Source of the DNA: Hoyosella sp. YIM 151337 | Lineage (GTDB): Bacteria > Actinomycetota > Actinomycetes > Mycobacteriales > Mycobacteriaceae | NCBI RefSeq assembly: GCF_026041215.1 | Contig: NZ_JAPEIQ010000039.1 | Span: forward strand, 248,001 to 312,000 | Direction: 5' to 3' | Length of the DNA stretch: 64,000 nucleotides | Shown: piece after piece, positions 49,475 through 55,075 of the stretch | Layout: each line of letters starts with the position of its first letter | Numbering within the stretch: position 1 is the first letter of the stretch | Made by a program: the position numbers and the translations under genes | Notes under the pieces: model-generated | Seen by the model: only the letters and a program-made list of their open reading frames with translations | What the model was told of the DNA's origin: nothing | Databases searched by the model: none

Positions 49475-49573
49475 GCCGGAGCCGGGGCCGTGCCCCGCTC
49501 GGCGGGTATAGTTGAATGCGCAATGTAGGCTCAATAGCGGGCATGCTCGAAACAACCCTGGTTGGGGGAGATA

Positions 49574-50017
49574 GTGACTGCAGCAGATAGTAACGATGCT
49601 CAACGTGGAGCGTCGGTTCGAGTCGCTGTTCGGGCGGACTTGGAGTACCTGCATATTTTTCGCGGGGTAGCGGAGTTGGTGTCGACCGCGGCCGGCTTCG
49701 ATTTCGACGCGACCGATGATTTGCGTCTCGCGGTTGATGAAATCGCCGCGACGCTCATAGAAATATCGGAAAAAGGCGCTGACGTGGAGTGCGAATTCAC
49801 CGAAAACGGTGAGTACCTCCATATTGAGCTACGCGCGCACGACGCGGTTGGACAGCTGCCGAAATCGACGAATTTCCGCTGGCATATCGTCAAAACGCTG
49901 GCGGACGATTTGAGCTGGGACGAGGTTCCGGTCGTTCCCGCGGCCGATTCTGGGGCGCACTCATACAAGACCGTGGTACGCATCGCGAAGCGGAAGGCGA
50001 CCACCACCGGTGGATGA
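49574..50017 (+). CDS. rsbW: Anti-sigma factor of the RsbW/UsfX type
   Basis: 147 residues from GTG 49574 after GGGGGAGA. A single histidine-kinase-like ATPase domain carries the N-box LRLAVDEIAATLIE. The later glycine-rich motifs are reduced, as in actinobacterial SigF anti-sigma factors. It should hold SigF inactive until an unphosphorylated anti-anti-sigma protein draws it away. It overlaps sigF by 8 nt, which keeps the two proteins at similar levels. The STAS protein at 56.6 kb is a possible partner. Confidence 0.88.
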   Translation: MTAADSNDAQRGASVRVAVRADLEYLHIFRGVAELVSTAAGFDFDATDDLRLAVDEIAATLIEISEKGADVECEFTENGEYLHIELRAHDAVGQLPKSTNFRWHIVKTLADDLSWDEVPVVPAADSGAHSYKTVVRIAKRKATTTGG

Positions 50018-50774
50018 GCCCAATTACAAAGAAGTACCCCATCTCATTGCCAAGCTTCGAAAACTCGGTGACAGCCGTGACGAGGCGGAAGAGTTGCGGC
50101 ACCAGATTATTCAGCAATGTATGCCGCTCTCCGAGCACATCTCTCGGCGGTTCGCTGGCCGCGGCGAGTCACTCGACGACCTTCGCCAAGTCGCGATGGT
50201 TGGCTTGATTCACGCGATCGACCGGTTCAACCCTGAAGTGGGCGACGACTTTCTGGCGTTCGCGGTACCTACCATCATGGGCGAGGTACGGCGGCATTTT
50301 CGGGACACGCGCTGGGCTGTCCGAGTGCCGCGCAGGCTGCAAGAGGTGCATCTCGCGATCGGCGACAGCACCGCGCATCTGACCCAGCGCCTCGGGCGGG
50401 AACCCACGTCCGAAGAACTCGCCGCCGAGCTTGGCATAACGGTTGCTCAGCTCGATCAGGGCCGTTTGGCGGGCAGTGCGTTCAGTGCGCAGTCTGTCGA
50501 CGCGGCGCGCGGGCATGGTGAAGATTCGCAGCCGCTCATGGATGTCGTGGGAGAACCAGATATCCAGTTTGAACAGTTCGAGAATCACGAAGCTTTGCGT
50601 GCCGCCCTTGACTCCCTTCCCGCCCGTGAACGCACCATCATTGTCATGCGGTTTTTCGGAAACAAGACGCAAGCGCAAATTGCTGAGCATCTCAATATTT
50701 CGCAAATGCACGTCTCTCGGTTGCTCGCGAAAACGCTCACCCAGCTGCGCGGGCGGGTCGACGGAGAGCTCTGA
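50010..50774 (+). CDS. sigF: RNA polymerase sigma factor SigF (sigma-B/F/G group)
   Basis: 254 residues. Region 2 (about 35-105) has DDLRQVAMVGLIHAIDRFNP, region 3 (about 115-175) RVPRRLQEVHLAIG, and region 4 (about 195-250) LPARERTIIVMRFFGNKTQ with helix ISQMHVSRLLAKTL. This is the alternative general-stress or stationary-phase sigma factor of actinobacteria. GTG start within rsbW. A SigF-type promoter (GTTT-N15-GGGTAG) follows about 30 bp after its end, before the ATP-grasp gene. Confidence 0.93.
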   Translation: MDEPNYKEVPHLIAKLRKLGDSRDEAEELRHQIIQQCMPLSEHISRRFAGRGESLDDLRQVAMVGLIHAIDRFNPEVGDDFLAFAVPTIMGEVRRHFRDTRWAVRVPRRLQEVHLAIGDSTAHLTQRLGREPTSEELAAELGITVAQLDQGRLAGSAFSAQSVDAARGHGEDSQPLMDVVGEPDIQFEQFENHEALRAALDSLPARERTIIVMRFFGNKTQAQIAEHLNISQMHVSRLLAKTLTQLRGRVDGEL

Positions 50775-50804: not shown

Positions 50805-50829
50805 GTTTGCCGGTGGCTCGTCCGGGTAG
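50805..50829 (+). promoter_or_regulatory. SigF-type promoter before the ATP-grasp/CocE pair
   Basis: GTTT (50805-50808), 15-bp spacer, GGGTAG (50824-50829). This fits the actinobacterial SigF consensus GTTT-N15 to 17-GGGTAT with one mismatch. It is placed about 95 bp before the ATG at 50925, so a leader of around 90 nt is predicted. It was the only motif in the window's gene-upstream regions where I found both halves at proper spacing. Confidence 0.6.
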
Positions 50830-50924
50830 TCACGCCTCATCAGTAACTGTGCGGCTGCGTAAGTCCGGTGAACGCCACAGAATCCCGGATGCCGGTAGTC
50901 GCGTGCGACACGGAGAGGCGCAAC

Positions 50925-52274
50925 ATGTCCTTTACTGTGCTGGTACCGGGAATGACAGAGAAACAGCACCGTCTGCTCCAGCAGGTGGAGCAGACGCGCG
51001 ATGTGCAGTTTCGGCCATTGCTTGATTACGAGCGGCTTGTTGCGGTCGAGGAGATAGACTTCGGCCGGCTGCTCGACGCCGCGCGCGAGGAGATTGCCGC
51101 ATTTGACGGCAGGATCGACGCGATCATCCCGCACTGGGACTTTCCGACGAGCGTGCTCGCACCGATCCTCGCGGCTGATCTGAACTTGCGGGCGCCCACT
51201 CTTGAGAGTGTCCTTAAGTGCGAGCACAAGTACTGGAGCCGCGCGCAGCAGCGCGACAGTGTGCCCGCGTGCGCCCCTGAATTTGAGCTCATCGATCCTT
51301 TCGATGCCGAAGCCGCGGAGAAGGCGCAGATTAGCTACCCGTTCTGGCTCAAGCCGGTGAAGTCGCATTCCTCTCAGATGGGCTTCCGTGTCGGCGATCG
51401 TGACGAATTGCGTGCCGCGCTGGAAGCCGTCAAGGAAAGCATCTCTGACATCGGAGATGCTTTCGCGGTGGTTCTCGACCAAGTGAGGCTGCCAGATTCG
51501 ATCCATGAGGCATCCGCGCGCAAGTGTATCGCTGAGGAGCTTCTCACCGGCATCGAGTTCGCGATCGAGGGATGGGCGGTGCAAGGCGAAATCGGCGTGC
51601 ACGGCGTGATCGATATGACGATCGAAGCGGACTCGCATGCGATCGATTCCTTTATCTATCCCGCTACCCGCATCCCTCGAGACGTACAGGAACGGGCCAT
51701 CGCGGCCGCGAAGAAGTTCCTTTTGCACATCGAGTACATGGACGGCTGCTTCAATGCGGAGTTCATCTGGGATGAGGAGCGTGACTTGCTGCGCGTTGTC
51801 GAGTTCAACACGCGCATTTCCCAGTCGCACACCGAAATGTTCATCAACGTTGATGGCGCGCCCAATCACCTTGTTGCTCTCGATGTCGCGCAAGGCCGTG
51901 TCCCTGAGTTCCCGTACAGGCAGGGCAAGTTTGGTGTTGCGGCGCATTGCTACCTGACAACGACTGCGAAGGGAGTTGTCACCAAAGTTCCGACGTCCGG
52001 GGAGATCTACGCGGTCGCTGAGACGCTTCCCGGGACATCGGTGGATCTGGAAGTGGAGCAAGGCCAGGAATTGTCCGCAATAGCCCACCAGGATGCGTAT
52101 CGGTCGAGGCTGGCGAAGTTGAACATCGCCGCGGACGGTCCGGAGCAACTCAAACGCGTCTATGAGGCGTGCCGGTCACAGTTGCTCTTCGAAATCAAGC
52201 GCCCAGACGCGGAGGAGAAGACGGATGGAGACCATCACGAATTTCCCGTACGCGATCGAATCGACGGAGAATGA
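50925..52274 (+). CDS. ATP-grasp domain protein
   Basis: 449 residues from ATG 50925 after GGAGAGG; the longer frame is rejected. The ATP-grasp fold spans about 100-320, with FWLKPVKSHSSQMGF (nucleotide-binding strands) and FNAEFIWDEERDLLRVVEFNTR (Mg-binding acidic cluster, E and N). Such enzymes join a carboxylate to an amine or thiol through an acyl phosphate. Neither substrate can be read. The gene overlaps the CocE/NonD hydrolase by 50 nt, so the ligase and hydrolase are made together. A SigF-type promoter precedes it. Confidence 0.83.
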   Translation: MSFTVLVPGMTEKQHRLLQQVEQTRDVQFRPLLDYERLVAVEEIDFGRLLDAAREEIAAFDGRIDAIIPHWDFPTSVLAPILAADLNLRAPTLESVLKCEHKYWSRAQQRDSVPACAPEFELIDPFDAEAAEKAQISYPFWLKPVKSHSSQMGFRVGDRDELRAALEAVKESISDIGDAFAVVLDQVRLPDSIHEASARKCIAEELLTGIEFAIEGWAVQGEIGVHGVIDMTIEADSHAIDSFIYPATRIPRDVQERAIAAAKKFLLHIEYMDGCFNAEFIWDEERDLLRVVEFNTRISQSHTEMFINVDGAPNHLVALDVAQGRVPEFPYRQGKFGVAAHCYLTTTAKGVVTKVPTSGEIYAVAETLPGTSVDLEVEQGQELSAIAHQDAYRSRLAKLNIAADGPEQLKRVYEACRSQLLFEIKRPDAEEKTDGDHHEFPVRDRIDGE

Positions 52275-54282
52275 GTTCATTCCGGTGCGCGATGGCGCGC
52301 ATCTCGCGGCGCGGATCTGGAAACCCATCGACGCCGGGGACAACCCGGTCCCCGCTGTCCTCGAGTACATCCCGTACCGTAAGCGCGATGTGACCCGCGC
52401 GCGTGACGCGCTGAATCACCCTTACATCGCTGGACATGGGTACGCATGCGTTCGGGTTGACTTGCGCGGCGGCGGTGACTCTGACGGTGTTCTCCAGGAC
52501 GAGTACCTGGAGACCGAGCACAACGACGCGATCGACGCGATCGCGTGGATCGCGAAACAGCCCTGGTGCGACGGCAATGTGGGGATGATGGGCATCTCAT
52601 GGGGCGGTTTCAACAGCCTTCAGGTCGCGTCGAAACAGCCTCCCGAACTGAAAGCCATCATCAGCGCATCCGCCACGGAAGATCTGTACGTCGACAACAT
52701 GCACTATATGGGCGGCTGCCTCCTTTCCGACAACCTGTCCGAAGCGACGGTGATGTTCGCGTTCAACAGCCTGCCCCCCGACCCGGCGATAGTTGGGGAC
52801 CGTTGGCGTGACATGTGGCGGGAACGTTTGGAAGACAGCGGTTTATGGATCGACACGTGGTTGCGCCATCAGCACCGCGACGACTACTGGCGCCGCGCGT
52901 CCGTCAACGAAGACTACGGTGCCATCACCTGTCCGGTATTCGCGGTTGGTGGCTGGGCTGATGGATACACCAACGCTATTTTTCGTCTTCTGGAGCACCT
53001 CGAGGTGCCCTGTAAGGCGCTGATCGGACCGTGGGGACATAAGTATCCCCACACGGGCGTGCCCGGACCGGCGATCGGTTTTCTCGATGAGGTCGTCCGC
53101 TGGTGGGATTTTTGGCTGAAAGGCATCGACAACGGCCTCGACAAAGAGCCCGCGATGCGAGTGTGGATGCAAGAAGCTGTTCCCCCGCGCTCCGCGTACG
53201 AGGAACGCCCCGGTCGCTGGGTGGCTGAGGACGCATGGCCCGCTGATCGCATCACCACGGCACGGTTCGAACTGAGCGACGGCGCACTACTCGGTATGGA
53301 CGGCTGCACCGAATCGGCTGGCCGCCGCGCCCATGTTGCGCGCCACCACGTGAAGTCTCCGCTCAGCGTGGGTATGTTCGCCGGCAAATGGGCCTCATAC
53401 TCGGCACCCCCCGATTTGCCGTCCGACCAGCGTGAGGAAGACGGCGGAGCGCTGGTCTACGAAACGGGAGTGCTCACAGAACAGGTGGAAATCCTCGGGC
53501 TGCCGAAGCTGCGCCTCTCCGTGTGCTCAGACAAGCCCGTCGCAATGGTGGCGGTGCGCTTGTCGGATGTGGCGCCGAGTGGGGAGGCCACGCGGGTAAC
53601 CTACGGTCTGCTCAATCTCACGCACCGAGACGGTAGTGCCGCCCCGCAGCCGCTGGAACCGGGACGCTTGTACCACGTCGAAGTGCCGTTGAATGGTGTG
53701 GCCCAGACCTTTCCTGCCGGACATAAGATTCGGCTGGCGATCTCGAGTTCGTATTGGCCGCTCGCCTGGCCATCACCTGAGTCCGCGACGCTGTCGATCG
53801 AGCCAGCGACAAGTGAACTCACTTTGCCAGTACGGCCGCCATCGCCGCGTGATGAGACGCTGCGCCAGTTTGGGCCACCGGCGGCAGCGCCGGAACTTGA
53901 GATCACACGGCTCGAACCCCCCGAGCATCACTGGAAACTCATCCGCGACCTCGCCTCCGGTCAATCTACTCTCGAAATCGTCAACGATCAGGGCGAGTTC
54001 CGCATCGATGAAACTGACACCGTGGTTCGGCGCGCGACTACCGAGTGGTTCAGCTTCACGCACAACGACGTGGAGTCGGTGCGGGGCGAGACGCAAACTG
54101 TCCGGCGGATCTCCCGGGGCACGTGGAAAATCGAGGTCAACACTCGGACCGTGATGACATCGACCGCAGCAGACTTCTGGCTGACGGCCCAGCTAGACGC
54201 CTGGGAATTCGATAGCACGCAGGGTGACCGGCGGGTGTTTTCGAAGAATTGGGATTCGCGAATTCCACGTGATCTTGTGTAG
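52225..54282 (+). CDS. CocE/NonD family hydrolase (peptidase S15-like)
   Basis: 685 residues from ATG 52225 after GGAGGAG, starting inside the ATP-grasp gene. The alpha/beta hydrolase triad is Ser125 in MMGISWGGFN, Asp246 in GGWADGYT and His272 in GPWGHKYPH. The C-terminal jelly-roll domain (about 430-560) is that of X-Pro dipeptidyl peptidase/cocaine esterase. A further 110-residue tail is longer than in many relatives. It cleaves an ester or amide, and the link to an ATP-grasp ligase suggests the bond is one the partner forms, or that both act on one metabolite. No signal peptide. Confidence 0.88.
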   Translation: METITNFPYAIESTENEFIPVRDGAHLAARIWKPIDAGDNPVPAVLEYIPYRKRDVTRARDALNHPYIAGHGYACVRVDLRGGGDSDGVLQDEYLETEHNDAIDAIAWIAKQPWCDGNVGMMGISWGGFNSLQVASKQPPELKAIISASATEDLYVDNMHYMGGCLLSDNLSEATVMFAFNSLPPDPAIVGDRWRDMWRERLEDSGLWIDTWLRHQHRDDYWRRASVNEDYGAITCPVFAVGGWADGYTNAIFRLLEHLEVPCKALIGPWGHKYPHTGVPGPAIGFLDEVVRWWDFWLKGIDNGLDKEPAMRVWMQEAVPPRSAYEERPGRWVAEDAWPADRITTARFELSDGALLGMDGCTESAGRRAHVARHHVKSPLSVGMFAGKWASYSAPPDLPSDQREEDGGALVYETGVLTEQVEILGLPKLRLSVCSDKPVAMVAVRLSDVAPSGEATRVTYGLLNLTHRDGSAAPQPLEPGRLYHVEVPLNGVAQTFPAGHKIRLAISSSYWPLAWPSPESATLSIEPATSELTLPVRPPSPRDETLRQFGPPAAAPELEITRLEPPEHHWKLIRDLASGQSTLEIVNDQGEFRIDETDTVVRRATTEWFSFTHNDVESVRGETQTVRRISRGTWKIEVNTRTVMTSTAADFWLTAQLDAWEFDSTQGDRRVFSKNWDSRIPRDLV

Positions 54283-54361
54283 GGGGTTTCCCCGAGACCG
54301 CGAGGGGTACTCCGCGCACAGTCCACCGTCCCAGCTCGGGCGACTATGCGGAGGTGCCAGC

Positions 54362-55075
54362 GTGACCCTAGATATTGCGCGTGAGAACGCTGCTGCCGTA
54401 CCGGAGCCGCCCGGCCTGCCGGTGCGGCCGCGAGTATTCCGGCTGCCGGGTGTTTACCGGCCGCAGGAGGACAGTGTGATGCTCGCCCGCGAGTACCTGC
54501 GCAGTGGTCTCGCAGGTCGGGGATCCGTCCTCGAATTATGCTGCGGGACTGGGTATCTATCGCTAATTGCCGCCCGCAGCGGGGTGCATGCGGTGACTGC
54601 CGTCGATCTCTCCTGGCGTGCAGTGGTATCCGCTCGCGTGAATGCTGGCATGTTGCGGGCGCCCGTGCGCGTCCGGCGAGGAGACTTCGCACGCATGGAC
54701 GGCATCAGCCCGGCAAGCGTCGTGCTCGCGAACCCGCCTTACGTGCCGTGGTTCGGCAGCGATGGGTCGCGACCGTGCGCGAAATGGGACGCGGGGGCAG
54801 ACGGGCGCGCAGTGATCGACGAGTTGTGCGCGGCGGCACCGCGATTGGTGGCCTCTGGTGGATCACTGCTCATGGTGCATTCGGCCATCAGCGACACGGC
54901 ACAGTCACTCCTCGCGCTGAGTGGGTCCGGCTTCGCTCCGCGTGTCGTTGCGCGAGAGCACATCCCGTTCGGTCCGGTCATGCGGAGCCGCGCGCAGCAA
55001 CTCGCCGCGGCCGGTTACATCGAGCCCGGCCAGGACCTCGAAGAGTTAGTGGTGATCCGTGCCGACAAACTCTGA
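54362..55075 (+). CDS. HemK2/PrmC-like SAM-dependent methyltransferase
   Basis: 237 residues from GTG 54362 after GGAGGTG. SAM motif I is LELCCGTGYLSL (57-68), and NPPY at 124-127 is the catalytic motif of N-methyltransferases acting on glutamine or adenine. It is close to the HemK2/MTQ2 group, which methylates glutamine in release factors; a true prmC is expected elsewhere in the genome. It overlaps the CDGSH gene by 17 nt, hinting at a joint function. Target unknown. Confidence 0.82.
   Translation: MTLDIARENAAAVPEPPGLPVRPRVFRLPGVYRPQEDSVMLAREYLRSGLAGRGSVLELCCGTGYLSLIAARSGVHAVTAVDLSWRAVVSARVNAGMLRAPVRVRRGDFARMDGISPASVVLANPPYVPWFGSDGSRPCAKWDAGADGRAVIDELCAAAPRLVASGGSLLMVHSAISDTAQSLLALSGSGFAPRVVAREHIPFGPVMRSRAQQLAAAGYIEPGQDLEELVVIRADKL

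Follow-up and report, generated by a model that had tools for sequence, protein, structure and literature searches.

A predicted SigF-driven operon of an ATP-grasp ligase and a CocE/S15-type hydrolase in Hoyosella: a possible make-and-break cycle for a small amino-acid amide or dipeptide

Among the described systems closest to the locus studied here are the L-amino acid ligases, such as BacD, which makes a dipeptide in bacilysin synthesis, and RizA, which we take to be an arginine dipeptide ligase. The ligase of the N-acetylglutaminylglutamine amide (NAGGN) system is presumably of the ATP-grasp type. NAGGN is a dipeptide osmolyte, and its operon, as given in the excerpted text of PMC8070244, holds genes for an asparagine synthase, a GNAT-family protein and a glutamyl aminopeptidase. 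Here we describe a locus from Hoyosella sp. YIM 151337 in which the genes for an ATP-grasp ligase and a CocE/NonD (peptidase S15-type) hydrolase follow the sigma factor gene sigF. The 64,000-nucleotide (nt) stretch that was analysed is referred to as the window, and positions are those of the window; genomes, contigs and loci carry our own handles (G, C and L). A full-text literature search, with most subscription journals outside its reach, found no paper on this ligase-hydrolase pair. We propose, with a probability of roughly 0.45, that the two genes, driven by SigF, form a cycle that makes and again breaks a small compound, either an amino-acid amide or a dipeptide, which may serve as a stress solute. 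The elements on which this proposal is built are as follows.

50010..50774, + strand: sigF, encoding a SigB/SigF/SigG-type sigma factor (TIGR02980, 275 bits against a cut-off of 234; sigma regions 2, 3 and 4)
50805..50829, + strand: predicted SigF-type promoter GTTT-N15-GGGTAG, between sigF and the ligase gene (conserved in five relatives, spacer diverged)
50912..50918, + strand: ribosome binding site GGAGAGG of the ligase gene (sequence reading)
50925..52274 including the stop codon, + strand: ATP-grasp ligase gene, 449 amino acids (aa), L-amino-acid-ligase-like (ATP-grasp_4; AlphaFold2 model with a predicted local distance difference test score, pLDDT, of 91; top PDB match 3vot)
52211..52219, + strand: ribosome binding site GGAGGAGAA of the hydrolase gene, within the ligase gene (sequence reading)
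52225..54282, + strand: CocE/NonD (peptidase S15-type) hydrolase gene, 685 aa, catalytic triad Ser125-Asp246-His272 (domain models; triad invariant)

The first-pass annotation had placed GTTT-N15-GGGTAG just after sigF, ahead of two genes overlapping by 50 nt and each provided with a ribosome site, and all of this was found again: the two open reading frames (ORFs) overlap by 50 nt, and both ATGs are preceded within a few bases by a purine-rich site. The start of the hydrolase is further backed by a first methionine that is invariant across 15 aligned homologues. The annotation had also predicted that the motif is a SigF-type promoter, and this prediction held up well. In the excerpted text of PMC7693655 the mycobacterial SigF consensus is GGWWT-N16-17-GGGTAY and GTTT-N17-GGGTAA is named as a SigF site; the window site departs from that consensus at two positions, the first G and the last Y. 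The pattern GTTTN15-17GGGTA has two matches in the window against 0.22 expected from shuffled sequences, 3 of 100 shuffles reaching two. It stands upstream of the ligase gene in six of the six fetched genomes in which this gene lies behind sigF, namely the window and five relatives (L119-L123) whose sigF was confirmed by tblastn (66-85% identity). The distance from the end of the motif to the ligase ATG is 66-73 nt in the relatives versus 96 nt in the window. When the six intergenic regions were aligned, GTTTG and CGGGTA appeared as the main conserved blocks, together with a short TCA, while the remainder had diverged, and when each region was shuffled singly (5000 shuffles) the motif arose in 0.04-0.12% of cases.

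The motif is also clustered around sigF, as 11 of its 36 matches in the genome fall within 43 kb beginning at this operon and extending from window position 50805 to about 29 kb past the window end (G000:C33:298805-341091; L162, L163). The corresponding Poisson value, 5e-14, is a descriptive figure, since the island was chosen after the list of matches had been seen. Judged by position, 8 of the 11 island motifs precede a co-directional gene start by no more than about 120 nt, and two of these starts were re-read from over-long ORFs. The genes of the island include a long catalase gene directly behind a motif and genes for a GCS2-type ligase, a HAD hydrolase, a zinc-binding dehydrogenase, a short-chain dehydrogenase and glycosyltransferases, besides others, and the cluster is a candidate SigF regulon island. 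Among 24 other actinobacterial loci with the pair, only one loose form of the motif was found within 300 nt (L109), and a separate scan gave a weaker GGGAA form in L124. This single loose match among the 24 means that SigF control is indicated for the sigF-linked group only, and that the regulator seems to vary by lineage. For the window, we regard the site at 50805 as a predicted SigF promoter with high confidence, and SigF control of the operon, to judge from the DNA, is very likely.

To see how firmly the two genes belong together is to look at their distribution. The 80 best of 433 confirmed ligase matches, ordered by similarity, came from Pseudomonadota (43), Actinomycetota (24), Thermodesulfobacteriota (8), Gemmatimonadota (3), Balneolota (1) and Planctomycetota (1), and the pair itself spans at least five phyla. 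The contig of the Balneolota locus, from Balneolales, lacks the hydrolase and carries two tandem ligase paralogues behind an alpha-amylase-family gene (L087:3370-6118). The hydrolase gene lies directly downstream of the ligase gene and on the same strand in 74 of 90 fetched ligase loci, of which 66 show a spacing of -120 to +250 nt and eight were recovered in a re-check with a shorter ligase query (L032, L043, L045, L059, L089, L104, L123 and L128). A 4-nt overlap is the commonest spacing (16 of the 66). Four further loci have the hydrolase elsewhere, either 4-5 kb upstream (L088, L093) or on the opposite strand (L091, L099), and L097, scored as a contig end, has it upstream. When 345 genomes of the window's class were scanned with profiles, scoring was limited to the few best candidates of each genome, as in our genome scans generally (here at most three hydrolases and five ligases). 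There were 32 ligase hits in 27 genomes and 31 hydrolase hits of at least 1095 bits, the next hydrolase score being 810 bits. All 31 of these hydrolases adjoin a ligase; a solitary ligase was seen in G168:C12. Moreover, the ligase and hydrolase trees separate the window's actinobacterial group, the Halomonadaceae groups and the sulfate reducers in a similar way. The coupling of the two genes suspected in the annotation is thus borne out by these counts, and the pair is kept in relatives, although one congeneric species has the ligase without the hydrolase (see below). That ligase and hydrolase are functionally coupled can be held with little doubt.

With regard to the ligase, its domain matches ATP-grasp_4 with 37.4 bits against a cut-off of 27, and its best sequence match in the PDB is 3vot (E 9e-5). 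Foldseek searches with the model placed the L-amino acid ligases 3vot and then 4wd3 (RizA) on top. VIA-align superimposed the model on 3vot with a Z score of 30.9 (384 residues, root-mean-square deviation 3.1), the next entry reaching 27.9; the values for BacD and RizA were 27.4 and 26.0. The three-domain ATP-grasp fold is therefore closest to that of known dipeptide ligases. The lead of 3vot by 3 Z units is clear for this predicted model, yet it is no proof of dipeptide synthesis, and other ATP-grasp families remain compatible with it. K143, E204, E279, E293, N295 and R297 are invariant among 41 ligase homologues; we take K143 to be the ATP-grasp lysine, and the others presumably include the metal-binding Glu, Asn and Arg. 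No curated NCBIfam model matched the ligase above its cut-off, the top match being urea carboxylase with 31 bits against 1304. The ligase tree falls into two subfamilies (SH-aLRT 99), and the window belongs to subfamily I.

The hydrolase is easily recognised by its domains, Peptidase_S15 (235 bits, cut-off 23) and PepX_C (160 bits, cut-off 22.5), and by TIGR00976, CocE_NonD (254 bits, cut-off 66.3). Its triad residues S125, D246 and H272 are invariant in the homologues and align with the motifs of cocaine esterase, whose Ser117 was named in the structural comparison; the Asp and His are presumably the counterparts of the partners of Ser117. The model is of medium quality (pLDDT 74.8), and structure comparison relates it to cocaine esterase, an archaeal aminopeptidase, alpha-amino acid ester hydrolases and X-Pro dipeptidyl peptidase. 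Homologues that occur without the ligase mostly group together, 14 of 18 falling in a single clade of the hydrolase tree (SH-aLRT 97). Eight such loci from the window's class were read: five have a POT-type oligopeptide symporter gene directly upstream (L129, L130, L132 and L137 by TIGR00924, L135 by Pfam), and two lie beside a peptide/nickel-type ABC transporter (L133, where one ATPase subunit exceeds the dipeptide-transporter cut-off, and L134, where the binding protein alone was scanned). In Halomonadaceae, L153 has a ligase-free hydrolase beside an ABC transporter, as read by eye. The neighbours of the ligase-free hydrolases suggest that the substrates are peptides or small zwitterions of a similar kind. 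Two Halomonadaceae loci (L151:7344-12546, L152:6435-11747) hold two divergent hydrolase paralogues, without this ligase, beside a gene for a D-Ala-D-Ala-ligase-like protein of 341-346 aa; here the hydrolase family appears to have gained an ATP-grasp partner of another kind.

In the reading that we prefer, the ligase and hydrolase genes would make up one general-stress operon, with SigF transcribing both from the site at 50805, as is strongly indicated. The ligase would activate a carboxylate with ATP and couple it to an amine, formation of a dipeptide or an amino-acid amide being most likely as we infer from fold and family, and the S15/CocE-type serine hydrolase would cleave the ligase's compound again. 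Between them, the enzymes would build up a small amide during stress and reclaim its constituents later. That the pair's chemistry concerns a peptide or amide bond we consider reasonably probable. As to the role of the compound, a stress solute appears the most likely one by analogy with NAGGN, which is also encoded beside a peptidase, but we would put this at somewhat less than even odds. The similarity-ordered list of carriers tends to favour salt or drying stress, as 38 of the 80 best loci are from Halomonadaceae and seven carry the tag CSSed, which we take to stand for soda-lake sediment. A wider version is more doubtful still, namely that the two genes are a pathway for an intracellular dipeptide or amide solute, spread over five or more phyla that include members prone to salt and drought, which would be switched by SigF in the window's lineage and would form, as subfamily II, the missing soluble branch of cyanophycin metabolism. 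In any of these forms, a ligase-hydrolase pair that is widely conserved and has no assigned product points to a new small molecule in stress physiology. Its predicted promoter suggests how the pair is regulated here, and the tie of subfamily II to cyanophycin in Halomonadaceae (see below) provides a list of substrates to consider: Asp, Arg, beta-Asp-Arg and dipeptides.

Several observations weigh against a SigF-driven make-and-break cycle. Genome-wide the motif occurs near chance level, with 36 matches versus 31 for the reversed pattern, so the promoter was judged on conservation and clustering only; we rejected a chance match in view of the conservation in relatives and of the cluster of 11 motifs. 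The fold of the ligase is common to PurK, PurT, GAR synthetase and biotin carboxylase (Z 24-28), and another acyl acceptor is therefore possible. In 11 of the 90 loci the ligase has no hydrolase on the fetched DNA, and G002, from the window's own genus, has the ligase behind sigF and no such hydrolase in its genome. Among the eight loci of the window's class that were read for ligase-free hydrolases, L138 is without an adjoining transporter, and ligase-free hydrolases of Halomonadaceae can lie beside genes for BCCT (L154, L156) or glycine-betaine-type (L157) transporters instead of peptide transporters. Finally, the pair has no constant third gene, as no Pfam family occurs in more than four of 116 neighbour proteins from 29 subfamily I loci. 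This census used 116 of 158 listed neighbour proteins (31 loci) and omitted 42; genes were called mechanically, and proteins above 700 aa were unlisted.

Of the other explanations, a nitrogen store fares best. Here the pair would build and dismantle an Asp or Arg compound that feeds or drains cyanophycin, and lineages free of cyanophycin would keep the soluble product as a store. A full cyanophycin synthetase is encoded near the ligase in L088, L093, L095 and L084, and a cyanophycinase (TIGR02069) in L088, L084 and L095; the corresponding gene of L093 is a peptidase S51 gene, and L097 has one of these too, as read by eye. An asparaginase-2/IaaA-like gene is found in L088 and L099, while L095 and L084 have no hydrolase on the fetched DNA. 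The Halomonadaceae-type family to which G499 belongs, with 151 genomes, gives the link its numerical weight: the ligase is present in 76 genomes and the synthetase, above its cut-off, in 44, all 44 of which carry the ligase. The synthetase thus occurs in 44 of 76 ligase carriers versus 0 of 75 others (Fisher p 1.4e-17, uncorrected for kinship), and two ligase-free genomes have matches below the cut-off only. In 20 of the 44, ligase and synthetase genes are divergent neighbours with a gap of 1.18-1.23 kb; each of the four loci that were read (L146-L149) has a homologue of cyanophycinase in this gap. The synthetase is also present in 22 of 50 ligase-bearing genomes picked from the 80 best loci. 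RizA as a close structural match of the ligase fits a nitrogen store as well, and PMC10206079, as excerpted, names, for one cyanophycin cluster, a weak homologue of cocaine esterase that might be an isoaspartyl dipeptidase; its main text does not use the term 'ligase'.

Against this stands the confinement of the link to subfamily II, which includes all ten tree rows marked as cyanophycin-linked (L084, L088, L093, L095, L097, L099 and L146-L149, L099 being marked through its IaaA-like neighbour only). In the window's class the synthetase is present in 33 of 345 genomes and in 0 of the 27 with the ligase, and the window genome (G000) has no full synthetase, its top TIGR02068 match scoring 112.6 bits against a cut-off of 850. 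A cyanophycin role was consequently rejected for the window's class. In addition, cyanophycin loci already hold candidate dipeptidases, either the asparaginase-2/IaaA-like gene or an amidohydrolase read as IadA. The tie seen in Halomonadaceae, sulfate reducers and Gemmatimonadota suggests a closely related amino-acid chemistry, but being limited to subfamily II and absent from the window's class it shows the chemistry that the family can serve and not its role here. A nitrogen store is accordingly unlikely for the window. The suggestion in the first-pass annotation of a peptide-like amide or a storage compound stood in part: it fits the dipeptide-ligase-like structure and the cyanophycin loci of subfamily II, whereas no storage link is seen in the window's class. 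Upstream of subfamily II pairs, two uncharacterised genes of Halomonas, with 435 aa and about 690 aa, are found repeatedly (L096:2748-6240, L077:942-4383); one of each was scanned and had no Pfam or NCBIfam match at the thresholds used.

A salvage or repair function appears a little less probable again. The hydrolase would then free amino acids from stress-made or imported peptides or esters, and the ligase would load an unrelated acceptor, for example a lipid or a cell-wall part. The importers beside ligase-free hydrolases speak for this, and so do two solitary subfamily I ligases, each followed in the hydrolase's place by an overlapping or abutting PLD-type, cardiolipin-synthase-like gene (L072:7001-9507, L063:3-2134). 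Such a neighbour may hint at a lipid acceptor; the PLD-type gene of L072 was confirmed, yet it scores below the curated cut-off for cardiolipin synthase (TIGR04265). On the other hand, neither an importer nor an acceptor enzyme is constant beside the pair. Another proposal is that the ligase makes a signalling or antibiotic-like dipeptide which the hydrolase removes for self-protection. BacD, at a Z score close to those of the other dipeptide ligases, is in its favour, but the neighbour census showed no recurring family for tailoring, resistance or export, and the spread across phyla together with stress regulation fits a housekeeping function better, leaving this proposal improbable. That the two genes merely share a promoter and are functionally unrelated, as are many stress genes in the SigF island, is contradicted by the conservation of the pair across phyla and in other neighbourhoods and by trees that part the actinobacterial, Halomonadaceae and sulfate-reducer groups alike, and it can practically be dismissed.

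Around the operon, the following features complete the picture.

49562..50017, + strand: RsbW-like anti-sigma factor gene, start uncertain, overlapping sigF (HATPase_c_2, E 7.3e-6, 26.4 bits, just below the cut-off of 27.4; weak matches to RsbW models, all below cut-off)
54286..54310, + strand: second SigF-type motif GTTT-N15-GGGTAC, 5' of the methyltransferase gene (counterpart motif in L119, L120, L121 and L122)
54362..55075, + strand: HemK-related methyltransferase gene, candidate next stress transcription unit (MTS domain; homologue downstream in L119, L120, L121 and L122)

An anti-sigma factor gene also precedes sigF in L119, L120, L121 and L122, and the second motif and the methyltransferase gene behind it recur jointly in the same four loci. 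Between 54362 and 56381, the methyltransferase gene is accompanied by a short ORF read as a CDGSH-type iron-sulfur protein and by an opposite-strand gene for a haem-oxygenase-like iron protein, and L121 and L122 have this set behind the pair as well. The methyltransferase and the haem-oxygenase-like protein further have homologues close to the pair in L128 and close to the ligase in L119 and L120. In other subfamily I loci, the pair is near LigD and Ku genes (Billgrantia and Chromohalobacter, several of these loci with a DUF892 gene too), or Mn-catalase or alpha-amylase genes are nearby.

Compared with the known systems, the pair resembles cyanophycin clusters (cphA, cphB, and iaaA or iadA) in that its subfamily II members lie within or beside them, whereas subfamily I, to which the window belongs, does not, and the window genome is without a full synthetase. 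The likeness to the NAGGN operon of PMC8070244, as far as its excerpted text goes, is that a dipeptide-making enzyme and a peptidase gene share one stress operon. The window operon differs from it in having neither an acetyltransferase domain nor an asparagine synthase, and in its SigF promoter and its S15-type hydrolase, which stands in place of the NAGGN peptidase. Membership of the NAGGN system was rejected, as TIGR03103, the model of its acetyltransferase/ATP-grasp synthetase, is missing from the NCBIfam hits of the ligase up to E 1 and the neighbours are sigF, the S15-type hydrolase and the methyltransferase. The L-amino acid ligases BL00235 (3vot), RizA (4wd3) and BacD (3vmm) are the nearest in structure, 3vot and 4wd3 leading in Foldseek, 3vot in VIA Z score and BacD being close, but at 15-17% identity; in contrast to them, the window ligase is paired with a hydrolase in an arrangement conserved across phyla. 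The hydrolase, in turn, shares domain order, triad and fold with the S15 enzymes cocaine esterase, alpha-amino acid ester hydrolase and X-Pro dipeptidyl peptidase, its identity to cocaine esterase being 22-24% in the structural alignment, and is set apart from them by about 155 residues past the PepX_C match and by its constant ligase partner.

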